Part shown: in pieces, positions 1-36,473 of the stretch
Layout of the letters: each line of letters starts with the position of its first letter
Position numbering within the stretch: the first letter of the stretch is position 1
Assembly: GCA_015060885.1 (NCBI GenBank)
Contig: SUXO01000021.1
Span: 1 to 36,687, forward strand
DNA length: 36,687 bases
DNA from: Bacteroidales bacterium
GTDB taxonomy: Bacteria; Bacteroidota; Bacteroidia; Bacteroidales; Bacteroidaceae
Direction: 5' to 3'
The notes under the pieces: model-generated
Told to the model about the DNA's origin: nothing
What the model saw: the letters and a program-made list of their open reading frames with translations, nothing else
The model's database searches: none
Program-made: the position numbers and the translations under genes

Positions 1-739
1 GGCTCACCTGCAAAAGTCGGGGGAATAAAACTTTCTCACTCCTAAATCCTCGGTGGCCCGTGAGATATTCTTTCTATCAAAGAATTTTTATTTACTTTTT
101 GTCGCTCAAAAAGTAACAAAAACGCCCGGCACACGGGGCGTTCAAGTCGCTCCTGTCTCTGCTCGTGAATTGCTTTAAAGCAATATAACTCGTTCGCCAC
201 TCGCTTGTCGCTGCAAGCCTTTCTGCCGTTTGCAGGGTGCTGCGTAACTCGCTCCGTGCGGCTATATAAGATAAATTATACCCGCACTGCGCTCAAACAG
301 TACTCGCACAATGGCCTGCCCCCGGCAGGGCTCTCCGCTGTCTCTCTTACGGTGCCGGTTTCTTTTTCTGAATTACTTTTGCTTGCGTTGTGCAACGCAA
401 AGGTAATTCGTCGCTGAAAGCGAAAGGGCAGCGTGGCGCGACACAGTGAGCTACCGAGCAATGCGCAGGAAAAGCGTGGTACATGTTTGAGCGCAGCGAG
501 TCGTGCCACGCCCAAGCATTGCGACCAGTAGTGAGCGGCAAGGCACGTAGCGACCGAAGAATGTCGCAGGCGTAGCAGCGACTTGTGAGCAAAGCAAGTG
601 CCGACTGGTAAGTACGACTGCCCACGTTTTTGTGCACTTTTTTCAAAAAGTGCAGCAGAAATCCTCTCTTAATTGAGAGAATAGCCGATAATAACACCGA
701 AAAGTTTTGAGCAAGTCCCATAGAATTTGCAGGTGAGCC
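1..739. mobile_element. MITE-like element, copy A
   Basis: A 739-bp non-coding element. The first 14 bases (GGCTCACCTGCAAA) and the last 14 (726-739) are perfect inverted repeats. It shares almost its whole length with the element at 1973-2856. Inside are a 10-bp hairpin (TTACTTTTTG, 92-116), a GC-rich hairpin around 124-140, a long hairpin around 369-409 and a 9-bp hairpin at about 474-512. The short open frames inside overlap in several frames and are not kept between the two copies, so I do not regard it as coding. No transposase is encoded, so it would need one in trans. The left flank is outside the window. If it made an 8-bp duplication like copy B, the base run just before position 1 should be GTGTTTGC, the sequence at 740-747. 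Confidence 0.85.
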
Positions 740-750
740 GTGTTTGCCCA

Positions 751-794
751 AATGAAAGAATAGCCGATAATGACACCGAGGAGTTTATAGTAAG
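751..794. repeat. Remnant of the right end of the MITE-like family
   Basis: This stretch is clearly similar to 671-714 inside copy A. Both contain GAATAGCCGATAAT followed by A or G and ACACCGA, then a GAGTTT/AAGTTT block and an AAG end. It lies only 11 bp beyond the right end of copy A, so copy A was probably inserted into or next to an older relative. A 7-bp hairpin (CCGAGGA at 776-782 with TCCTCGG at 798-804) follows. No other feature is seen between 795 and the promoter near 874. Confidence 0.65.
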
Positions 795-873
795 TTTTCC
801 TCGGTTTATAGCTGAACCAATTGGGCGTTATAACGAAGAAAAGCAGAGAATATTGTTAAAATGGATAATTTTG

Positions 874-905
874 TTTGGATTTAACACAATTATTTTATTA
901 CTTTG
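874..905 (+). promoter_or_regulatory. Promoter of the ECF sigma factor gene
   Basis: TTTG at 874-877 is followed after 20 nt by TTACTTTG (898-905), one mismatch from the Bacteroidota -7 box TAnnTTTG. A start near 912 would give a leader of about 75 nt before the ATG at 986. Confidence 0.5.
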
Positions 906-985
906 CACCGTTAAATCATTATAAACAACCTAAAAACACTATTGCCTATAAAACACGTCTACTCCAAAATCAATAAATAGACAGA

Positions 986-1579
986 ATGGAGAATTTGAAA
1001 CAGATGACCGACGATATGTTGGTGTCACTGTATGTAGGGGGCAATAATTCAGCGTTTGATACATTGTTGAATCGTCACAAGGACAGGTTGTACTATTACA
1101 TATATTTTATTGTACGTTCACGCGAGGTAGCCGAGGATATATTCCAGGAGACTTTTGTGAAAGCCATTATAAGGTTACAGGAGGGAAAATACCAGCCCGA
1201 CGGCAAGTTCGGTGCGTGGATAACCCGCATTGCTCATAATCTGGTAATAGACCAGTTCCGCCAGGAGCGCAATGAAAACCTTGTATCGAGCGACGAGGGC
1301 GAGGTGGATATTCTTAACGATGCATCGCTCTCCGAGGGTACAATAGAGAACCGTATGGTGAACGAGCAGGTGTTGCGCGATGTGCGTGCTCTTGTCGACG
1401 AACTTCCCGACTGCCAGCGCGAAGTGGTTTATATGCGTTTCTATCAGCAACTCTCTTTCAAAGATATTGCCGACATCACAGGTGTGAGCATAAACACAGC
1501 TCTTGGCCGCATACGTTATGCAATATTGAATATGCGTCGCATTGCAGCAGAGAAGAATATCAGTCTTGTACTTGAATAA
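986..1579 (+). CDS. ECF-type RNA polymerase sigma factor
   Basis: The 197-residue product has the two-domain layout of group 4 (ECF) sigma-70 factors and directs core RNA polymerase to a promoter set. Sigma region 2 covers roughly residues 24-95 (DIFQETFVKAI, then WITRIAHNLVIDQFR in the -10 recognition helix). Sigma region 4 covers roughly 135-185 (LPDCQREVVYMRF, then the helix-turn-helix FKDIADITGVSINTALGRIR). There is no region 1.1 or 3. No anti-sigma gene or FecR-like partner adjoins it, unlike the sigma/anti-sigma/SusCD arrangement common in this phylum. The next gene is the 59-aa protein at 1699, separated by a strong terminator. ATG 986 is the first Met and region 2 follows at normal spacing. 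The regulon cannot be told from sequence. Confidence 0.93.
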   Translation: MENLKQMTDDMLVSLYVGGNNSAFDTLLNRHKDRLYYYIYFIVRSREVAEDIFQETFVKAIIRLQEGKYQPDGKFGAWITRIAHNLVIDQFRQERNENLVSSDEGEVDILNDASLSEGTIENRMVNEQVLRDVRALVDELPDCQREVVYMRFYQQLSFKDIADITGVSINTALGRIRYAILNMRRIAAEKNISLVLE

Positions 1580-1610
1580 TAAACTGGAAATCATAAACTT
1601 ATAATTAGGT

Positions 1611-1653
1611 GTATATCCCGCAGTAATTTTTTTTACTGCGGGATATACTTTTT
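1611..1653 (+). terminator. Rho-independent terminator of the sigma factor gene
   Basis: A perfect 16-bp stem (1611-1626 with 1633-1648) closes a six-T loop and is followed by five Ts. It begins 31 nt after the sigma factor stop codon. Because the arms are perfect, it would also fold on the opposite strand. Confidence 0.9.
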
Positions 1654-1698
1654 ATGGCTTTCTTGCGTTTATTATATAGAACACCACCGATATAGCCT

Positions 1699-1878
1699 AT
1701 GAATAAAAAATCTACACTCAATCTAAAATTACAGAACTCAATCATTGCACAGGCATTGCGTAGCGAGAAGATGCCGAAGCCTACTGAAACTTCATTGGCT
1801 TTTATAAAGAATTTTGCGTATAATTTCAGGGTACAGCAGTGTGGCGATGGTATTGTTCACGATTTTGTATTAAACTAA
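1699..1878 (+). CDS. Small conserved Bacteroidales-type protein (59 aa)
   Basis: An ATG-started frame of 59 codons, ending TAA at 1876-1878. The product starts MNKKSTLNLKLQNSIIAQAL, has EKMPKPTETSLAFIKNFAYNF in two parts through the middle and ends HDFVLN. I recall short proteins of this shape (basic N-terminus, SIIAQAL, EKMPxP, then a FIKxFA segment) as uncharacterised proteins in Bacteroides relatives, but I know no function. It has no signal peptide or membrane segment. It lies between the sigma factor terminator and its own terminator at 1902, which supports a separate short transcript. There is no clear -7 box in the 45 bp between the upstream terminator and the start, so it might be expressed by readthrough. 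Confidence 0.65.
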   Translation: MNKKSTLNLKLQNSIIAQALRSEKMPKPTETSLAFIKNFAYNFRVQQCGDGIVHDFVLN

Positions 1879-1901
1879 CTGATTACTTAAACTAACCTCG
1901 G

Positions 1902-1931
1902 GCCGTTCCTCTTTTGGGGAACGGCTTTTTT
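1902..1931 (+). terminator. Rho-independent terminator after the 59-aa gene
   Basis: GCCGTTCC (1902-1909) pairs with GGAACGGC (1918-1925) and is followed by a run of six Ts. It lies 23 nt after the stop codon. Confidence 0.88.
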
Positions 1932-2400
1932 CTTGTTTGTTTCCCGTAAAAAAAGCTCATCTGCAAAGTCCGGGCTCACCTGCAAAAGTCGGGGGAATAA
2001 AACTTTCTCACTGCTAAATCCTCGGTGGCCCGTGAGCAATTCTTTCTATCATTGAATTCCTTTATTTACTTTTTGTCGCTCAAAAAGTAACAAAAACGCC
2101 CGGCACACGGGGCGTTCAAGCCGCTCCTGTCTCTGCTCGTGAATTGCTTTAAAGCAATATAACTCGTTCGACACTCGCTTGTCGCTGCAAGCCTTTCTGC
2201 CGTTTGCAGGGTGCTGCGTAACTCGCTTCGTGCGGCTATATAAGATAAATTATACCCGCACTGCGCTCAGACAGTACTCGCACAATGGCCTGCCCCCGAC
2301 AGGGCTCTCCGCTGTCTCTCTTACGGTGCCGGTTTCTTTTTACTGAATTACTTCTGCTTGCGCTGTACAACACGAAGGTAATTCGTCGCTGAAAGCGAAA

Positions 2401-2472
2401 ATAACGATTAAGTGAGAGTAGAAGGCAAATTTATTTGCATTATGCCGAGCGTGAGTTATTTCGTTATACAAA
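2401..2472. repeat. 72-bp insert in copy B with inverted ends
   Basis: Absent from copy A, where the flanks join directly (GCGAAA to GGGCAG). It has 7-bp inverted ends, ATAACGA (2401-2407) and TCGTTAT (2461-2467), and an inner AAATTTATTTGCATTATGCC block. It looks like a small palindromic repeat that entered copy B, or was lost from copy A. Confidence 0.6.
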
Positions 2473-2651
2473 GGGCAGCGTGGCGCGACACAGGGAGCTA
2501 CCGAGCAATGCGCAGGAAAAAGCGTGGTACATGTTTGAGCGCAGCGAGTCGTGCCACGCCCAAGCATTGCGACCAGTAGTGAGCGGCAAGGCACGAAGCG
2601 ACCGAAGAATGTCGCAGGCGTAGCAGCGACTTGTGAGCAAAGCAAGTGCCG

Positions 2652-2724
2652 AAAGTTTGTACAAACGAGCGGGTGAAAGCTTGCTTACACACAAAGCGAG
2701 TGCAGCCAAGCTTGGATTTATCAA
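2652..2724. repeat. About 73-bp insert in copy B related to the 83-bp repeat near uvrB
   Basis: Absent from copy A between GTGCCGA and the following AAGTACGACTGCCC block. It contains ACAAACGAGCGG (2661-2672) and, further on, GCGAGTGCAG, both in the same order as in the tandem unit at 17961-18126. The middle differs (GAAAGCTTGCTT instead of GAAGTTTACTTC) but keeps a small self-pairing block. This suggests one short repeat family present in both places. Confidence 0.55.
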
Positions 2725-3000
2725 TGGCAAGTACGACTGCCCACGTTTTTGTGCACTTTTTCAAAAAGTGCAGCATAAATCTTCGCTTAATTGAGAGAAT
2801 ATCCGACAATAACACCGAAAAGTTTTGAGTAAGCCCCTAGAATTTGCAGGTGAGCCAAAGTCCGGGGGGTGCTCAAAACTTCCCGACTATTCTCTTATGT
2901 GGGGCACGCCGGTGTGTGCGCCCGGAAAGAATATCTCACGGGGCACCGAGAATTTAAAAGTGAGAAATGTTTTATCCCTCCAACTTTTGCAAGTGGTCCT

Positions 3001-36288: not shown

Positions 36289-36473
36289 TTTTGCTGTACG
36301 AGCGACTGGGAAACTCATCAATTTATATGAAAACCGAGACAGCTTCGGTATCCCAATGGCGGGCCACAACCTTCGGGTAGCTTTAGAGAGCCGGTGGATT
36401 ACAAAGGGGTAGAGCTCTCAAATCATTTTTTCTCGGAGTTTCATCGTTCTCGTCGTGCAGCAAAACTTTTTTT
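36289..36473 (+). ncRNA. Bacteroidales-1-like structured RNA
   Basis: About 185 nt between a clear Bacteroidota promoter and a T run (36467-36473). The ends pair: GCTGTACGA (36293-36301) with TCGTGCAGC (36453-36461), nine pairs with one G-T, and next inside GAAACTC (36310-36316) with GAGTTTC (36436-36442). Smaller inner hairpins lie between. There is no open frame. The published Bacteroidales-1 motif is described as restricted to Bacteroidales, preceded by this kind of promoter, ended by a terminator and often placed after the L20 gene, all of which hold here. Its function is unknown. I identify it by context and structure, not by a covariance-model search. Confidence 0.75.

Follow-up and report, generated by a model that had tools for sequence, protein, structure and literature searches.

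Introduction

Hairpin repeats and structured RNA candidates are known from several bacterial systems, three of which are among the closest to the elements studied here. In Porphyromonas gingivalis, the miniature inverted-repeat transposable element (MITE) BrickBuilt has ends like those of ISPg1, an insertion sequence (IS) of the IS5 family, and contains 23-nt tandem repeats; in the available part of its description, a BLASTn match outside P. gingivalis is reported only in P. gulae (PMC4596501). Among the REP-associated tyrosine transposases (RAYTs; REP, repetitive extragenic palindrome), the Bacteroidetes genes of subclass 2.6 have ‘atypical secondary structures’ beside them, copies of which stand at other places in the same genome, according to the accessible sections of PMC6006769. 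Covariation has also yielded thousands of structured RNA candidates from the human microbiome, some palindromic and some in Bacteroidetes, as far as the consulted portion of PMC8040213 tells. Here we analyzed 36,687 nucleotides of a Bacteroidales bacterium (Bacteroidaceae; contig SUXO01000021.1 of assembly GCA_015060885.1, positions 1 to 36,687; the window), which contain two elements with shared inverted ends. We propose that these are in all likelihood non-autonomous MITEs of an ISL3-type family, moved in trans by an ISAon1-type transposase and carrying a hairpin domain, here called A, as cargo.

Results

Window elements and their partner insertion sequence

A first-pass annotation of the window, made from the letters alone, had described two elements of 739 and 884 bp with perfect 14-bp inverted ends and an exact 8-bp direct repeat around the second. 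All of these features were present as first described (Table 1); the four ends (GGCTCACCTGCAAA) are free of mismatches and the repeat (AAAGTCCG) is exact on both sides. The left flank of copy 1 lies outside the duplication test because the contig starts at the first base of that copy. At up to 3 mismatches the 14-bp end matched the window 13 times, compared to 3.8 expected, and none of 100 shuffles reached 13. The elements had been called strongly structured, which agrees with the DNA fold of the 884-nt strand of copy 2 (-163 kcal/mol, z -5.4 from 20 shuffles). They had also been called protein-free, and this holds as far as tested: the 134-aa frame, the longest lying mostly within either element, had no Pfam match, the inner frames of 88-105 aa being outside the scan. 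Being non-coding to that extent, the window elements are better regarded as ISL3/ISAon1 derivatives than as an IS.

ISL3 elements in general give 8-bp duplications. The ISL3 transposase domain PF01610 was matched in 17 of 41 genomes of the genus (14 above the cut-off), and the 14-bp end lay within 2 mismatches at 18 of the 30 ISL3 loci that we fetched; six of these 18 rest on a short transposase fragment below the Pfam cut-off, and two locus pairs among them share one end. Both ends were present at three loci, with one mismatch in one end of each. Two of the three, both in sister species, are ISL3-family IS with an exact 8-bp duplication on both sides: L113 (1429 bp, TGTTTTAC) and L117 (1427 bp, CACTTAGG), the latter with a broken frame. 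The third, L121, spans 1245 bp with a transposase fragment and no duplication. The full-length, ISL3-like IS with the same ends and 8-bp duplications that the annotation had suggested looking for was thus recovered in L113 and L117. The L113 transposase is made of two overlapping frames that match PF01610 together with NF049916 and NF049917, the NCBI models for the ISAon1 N-terminal and downstream parts. A CTTTTTTAAAAG run, which looks like a programmed frameshift site, stands at the junction of two transposase frames in 9 of 10 loci (L111-L116, L127, L128 and L134); the tenth locus, L110, is a one-frame ISL3.

The family in the genome of the window

We searched the genome of the window (G000; 2.24 Mb, 64 contigs, 88.5% complete) and its relatives for the 14-bp end, as the annotation had advised. 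G000 contains 51 exact ends and 73 at no more than one mismatch to GSCTCACCTGCAAA, compared to none for the reversed-pattern control in either case. A DNA search gave at least 73 matches (40 of 150 candidates scored), and no fewer than 16 contig ends of the assembly run into the repeat. The 14-mer occurred in 26 of the 61 genomes searched, G000 included, all 26 belonging to the same genus of gut bacteria.

Twelve copies whose two ends share a contig were treated as complete and aligned together; L084 was excluded (a 155-bp end pair with 2 mismatches in one end and flanks that agree at 6 of 8 positions). The right ~65 bp were alike in all 12 copies and the left ~130 bp in 11, C37 sharing only the left ~65 bp. 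Nine longer copies (592-885 bp) share, in full or in part, the modular interior seen in the two window elements, and three of 294-298 bp have a middle quite different from the others. Eleven complete copies could be tested for duplications: six had an exact 8-bp duplication, one matched at 7 of 8 positions and four had none. The counts support the earlier claims of a MITE-like family and of transposition that leaves 8-bp duplications. We also noted three right-end-type ends in direct order, ~197 bp apart, at L044 (G000:C47:23487-23895), and three ends 89 bp apart in G025 (C27).

A nested older copy and empty sites

Two features were overlooked in the first pass, namely the hairpin domain inside the elements and an older copy (1954-2999) around the second. 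In this older, decayed copy the end at 1954-1967 has 2 mismatches and the one at 2986-2999 has 3, and positions 2925-2987 pair at 81% with 12-74 of copy 1. It follows that copy 2 inserted into a pre-existing element of the same family, and at least two family insertions occurred at one place.

A search of 44 genomes located the MFS gene of the window in 39. We fetched 30 MFS loci, the one in the window included, and compared the other 29. Eight of these resemble the window in having an ECF sigma homologue (81-87% identical) within the fetched flank; in the eight congeners concerned, the MFS genes are 59-79% identical. The two genes are 347-410 bp apart in seven of the eight, compared to 1484 in the window; subtracting 892 for copy 2 plus one duplication, and 154 for the older copy, gives 438. 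Nothing stands opposite the elements when the seven short-gap congeners are aligned, and their gap contains neither the 14-bp end (type 1) nor the second end type described below. The eighth congener, L315, has 1156 bp between the genes, also with neither end type, and was left out of the alignment. The proposed comparison of occupied and empty sites thus held in part: the site is empty in seven of eight congeners with the same gene pair, but the loci belong to other species, so the comparison is not a strain-level one. The interval from the ECF sigma gene to the elements also holds a 59-aa frame (window 1699-1878), which may be a real small gene since its ATG and much of the frame align in the seven congeners.

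The A domain

The interior of the elements holds a hairpin domain of ~270 nt (A). In copy 2, P5 is paired at 10 of 14 positions and P3 is unpaired (1 of 8). We analyzed two alignments, A1 with 27 of 28 sequences (L095 was dropped for an insertion) and A2, the P5-P6 core, with 24 of 27 rows, 23 of them distinct, after removal of L097 (degenerate), L098 (which lacks P6) and L156. A1 opens with a start hairpin, followed by the closing stem CCGGCAC/GTGCCGG, which is exchanged in other copies for CCGTAAC/GTTACGG, GCAGCAC/GTGCTGC or CCGGCAG/CTGCCGG; the further stems vary in sequence yet pair in most rows.

In A2, 90.4% of cells are paired and 26 of 29 pairs show double changes. The covariation score was 0.489, compared to 0.175 in shuffles and 0.045-0.144 with slid partners, the slid versions being at a disadvantage because the structure was drawn from some of the same rows. 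None of 500 shuffles reached four of the five measures, and six reached the fifth, the count of further pair types. Seventeen of the 116 A2 columns are invariant in all 24 rows, including unpaired positions in TGCG and CTC. Double changes outnumber one-sided changes 116 to 7 in A, compared to 35 to 43 in the 6S RNA control (Table 1). Columns 43-64 of A2, a mostly unpaired pair, were dropped from this count and from the hand-drawn G-T and A-C counts given below. Folded as RNA, the A domain has a z of -3.6.

No part of the elements reached the Rfam gathering score, the best E being 0.17 and above. We examined 48 loci for a relation between A and its neighbours. The 22 A copies with genes on both sides are divided 6/6/5/5 among the four orientations. 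Of the eight largest neighbour protein clusters listed, the top one consists of frames overlapping A, the next occurs at 4 of 48 loci and the others at 3 each. The random orientation and the lack of a consistent neighbour argue against a leader or riboswitch, which we consider unlikely.

Distribution of A and the ends that carry it

Relatives of the interior occur in many congeners, mostly at ~65-80% identity and often lacking the 14-bp ends. Under strict filters, model R1 of the A core matched 40 of 44 genomes of the genus, G000 included; the 45 matches in G000 are the highest per-genome number in the genus. Across the order, with the same filters and 12 candidates scored per genome, R1 matched at least 5 of 295 genomes, again with G000. 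Outside the genus the E values were 1e-10 in G185, 3e-6 in G267 (7 matches) and 8e-4 to 9e-4 in G335 and G071, the last two being near chance level given the number of genomes searched. The matched sequences of other families retain much of the core motif. In G267, a complete, one-contig genome of another family, the outer stems vary between copies and still fold. At two loci of this genome, L282 and L284, A-like hairpins follow one another in direct order at distances of 288 and 980 bases. The exact two-part core pattern was found in 41 stretches of the named genome collection, all from metagenome-assembled genomes titled Bacteroidaceae or Bacteroidales bacterium and 38 with ruminant sample names. 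The pattern was absent from the viral contigs searched, and phages and plasmids gave no match.

An end lies no more than 250 bp upstream in 15 of 27 A copies, ten of them with type 1 (up to 3 mismatches) and five with a second type, GGYTCAGYAGAAATTTAGTGTGG (up to 5 mismatches); random stretches of the same loci gave 64 of 1350 and 7 of 1350, respectively. In 13 of the 15, A lies 92-127 bp inside the end. The type-2 end also adjoins ISL3 transposases in L134, L123 and L135, and L134 matches the ISAon1 downstream model. A-carrying elements bounded by type-2 ends were found in a congener (L160), with an exact 8-bp duplication, and in G000 (L268), with a duplication of 7 of 8. At two further loci in congeners the ends are of type 1 and the duplications exact: L150 (825 bp, one mismatch in each end, GTGACTTT) has two A domains face to face, and L152 has ends within one mismatch and an 8-bp duplication. 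One A-carrying copy, L149:344-1239 (G011:C52), is mixed, with a type-1 left end (2 mismatches) and a type-2 right end (5 mismatches). Pairs of R1 hits less than 350 bp apart were convergent in 5 of 5 cases among the matches listed; direct-order pairs occur in G033:C4 (~600 bp apart) and in G267.

Table 1. Coordinates of the features in the window (36,687 nt)
Feature	Position	Strand	Remarks
MITE copy 1	1..739	+	739 bp; first base is the contig start
Copy 1 left terminal inverted repeat	1..14	+	GGCTCACCTGCAAA, 0 mismatches
Copy 1 right terminal inverted repeat	726..739	-	GGCTCACCTGCAAA, 0 mismatches
A domain of copy 1	91..360	+	by alignment with copy 2; R1 core 221-331, 112.4 bits
Weak second A-type core, copy 1	452..525	-	11.9 bits, E 0.08
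Older decayed family member interrupted by copy 2	1954..2999	.	154 bp without the insert
Copy 2 target duplication, left	1965..1972	.	AAAGTCCG, exact
MITE copy 2	1973..2856	+	884 bp
Copy 2 left terminal inverted repeat	1973..1986	+	GGCTCACCTGCAAA, 0 mismatches
A domain of copy 2	2065..2334	+	hairpin P1, closing stem P2, stems P4, P5, P6
A core of copy 2	2195..2305	+	model R1, 108.9 bits; one of 24 sequences building R1
Weak second A-type core, copy 2	2500..2574	-	10.4 bits, E 0.18
Copy 2 right terminal inverted repeat	2843..2856	-	GGCTCACCTGCAAA, 0 mismatches
Copy 2 target duplication, right	2857..2864	.	AAAGTCCG, exact
Bacteroidales-1 (suggested 6S) RNA	36292..36468		126 bits; used as control

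Discussion

An ISAon1-type ISL3 transposase supplied in trans would recognise the GGCTCACCTGCAAA ends, and the element would then move as DNA; the shared ends and the 8-bp duplications are what was observed, and the act of transposition itself is inferred. The A domain lies between the ends, in some copies as two domains facing each other, and would travel as cargo with two or more kinds of ISL3-type ends. Our preference for the domain itself, which we hold tentatively, is a DNA-level hairpin module, with stems perfected and kept by template switching in replication and invariant positions held by a putative binding partner, perhaps a host or transposon protein. Several results weigh against the account as a whole. 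Four of the 11 testable complete copies in G000 have no duplication at all. The first-pass annotation held that the transposase must be elsewhere in the genome, and this found no support: PF01610 and the ISAon1 model found no transposase in the G000 assembly (88.5% complete, 64 contigs), the PF01610 matches being in congeners. Neither end type lies within 250 bp upstream of 12 of the 27 A copies, and A is accordingly not bound to them. The second A domain of the window copies reaches only E 0.08 and 0.18, and R1, under strict filters and with 12 candidates each, matched none of three genomes from another genus of the same family. The G-T to A-C counts add to these points, since they do not set A apart from RNA: with a symmetric pair choice they were 71:72 for A1, 30:26 for A2 and 36:19 for 6S RNA, shifting with the cut, and at the strictest cut 60:44, 34:23 and 33:19.

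The first-pass annotation had allowed that the elements could also act as transcribed RNA. It is rather unlikely, in our estimation, that A works as a structured RNA, transcribed as a small RNA which the MITE has spread and whose stems are kept by selection on the RNA. The strong covariation, the invariant unpaired positions, the RNA fold and the presence of A in 40 of 44 genomes of the genus would all suit such an RNA, and the G-T to A-C counts above are compatible with it, but there is no Rfam match, the orientation to neighbouring genes is random, and a genome may hold as many as 45 matches. In the hand-drawn structure, moreover, G-T pairs numbered 10 and A-C pairs 13, compared to 145 and 5 for the 6S control of the same genus with a structure chosen by RNAalifold; single-sequence folds gave values of 1.06 and 0.84 for A and 1.29 for 6S. 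The contrast with 6S depends on the choice of structure, being large with the RNAalifold structure, smaller otherwise and gone at the strictest cut. An origin of the covariation as a mere by-product, with template switching perfecting quasi-palindromes and A riding as a functionless passenger of the MITE, strikes us as equally doubtful. Template switching is able to make and keep perfect stems, according to the consulted part of PMC8794818, and the excess of double over one-sided changes fits it. Since invariant columns include unpaired ones, template switching alone is not a sufficient explanation, and the similar motifs in the matches of other families also speak against it. A further possibility, which we rate slightly below the DNA-level hairpin that we favour, is that A forms a separate kind of mobile hairpin module, spread across the genus and related to sequences in two or more further families of Bacteroidales. 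It would use ISL3-type ends, of type 1 or type 2 and in one copy a mixture of both, as vehicles and be read as folded DNA by a putative protein.

For the elements as a whole, two other sources of mobility were considered. A large REP or bacterial interspersed mosaic element (BIME) mobilised by a RAYT (Y1 HUH) transposase would account for interspersed hairpins and for the inverted pairs in some copies, but we regard it as very improbable: the size is far above the 20-40 bp of REPs given in the available text of PMC3733652. Terminal inverted repeats together with duplications of 8 bp point to a DDE transposase, and a Y1 transposase gene was found in 5 of 44 genomes of the genus and not in G000, on which ground RAYT/REP was rejected. 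The IS1595 and IS256 families also make duplications of ~8 bp. This agreement is the point in favour of IS1595- or IS256-type MITEs, which we hold to be extremely improbable; PF12762 was matched in 4 of 41 genomes, and the ends occurred at none of 9 IS1595 loci compared to 18 of 30 ISL3 loci, IS256 being outside the search. An IS1595 partner was rejected on these counts.

A probable transposase family can now be named for a high-copy repeat that reaches many contig ends of G000, and the results highlight that MITEs can carry a covarying folded module through a whole genus. The A module offers a test case in which strong covariation in a repeat may come from RNA function, DNA-hairpin function or template switching. 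The same question bears on the calling of candidate RNAs from covariation.

Comparison with known systems

The literature comparison covered the available parts of PMC10969869, PMC2864571, PMC6006769, PMC8040213 and PMC4596501. We found no description of the family in titles and abstracts on MITEs (ISL3, Porphyromonas, Bacteroidales), on Bacteroidales or Bacteroidetes structured RNAs, on REP and interspersed repeats, or on ISAon1, among the matches listed and with subscription journals mostly outside the coverage. The A domain was set beside the RNA candidates of PMC8040213 by description only, as given in the portion consulted and with the sequences uncompared, and an overlap is possible.

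The REP/BIME repeats with their RAYTs, as presented in the accessible sections of PMC6006769, share interspersed hairpins with the window elements, whereas the latter are much larger, have DDE-type ends and occur in a genome (G000) in which no RAYT was found. The ISAon1-type IS of the ISL3 family have the same 14-bp ends as the window elements, save for a single mismatch in one end each of L113 and L117, as well as 8-bp duplications. They encode a transposase, whereas the window elements, as far as tested, have none and contain the A domain. No A domain lies between the ends of the full-length IS L113, a BLAST search of copy 2 matching L113 solely outside them. Judged from the available part of PMC4596501, BrickBuilt resembles the window elements in being ~1 kb long, modular, intergenic, hairpin-forming and from Bacteroidales. 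The ends of the window family differ from those printed there for BrickBuilt, and a 23-nt tandem array was not seen by eye in the 12 aligned complete copies (no tandem-repeat program was used). Compared to BrickBuilt as described there, the family of the window is distinguished by ISL3-type ends and by a covarying hairpin domain that extends across a genus.

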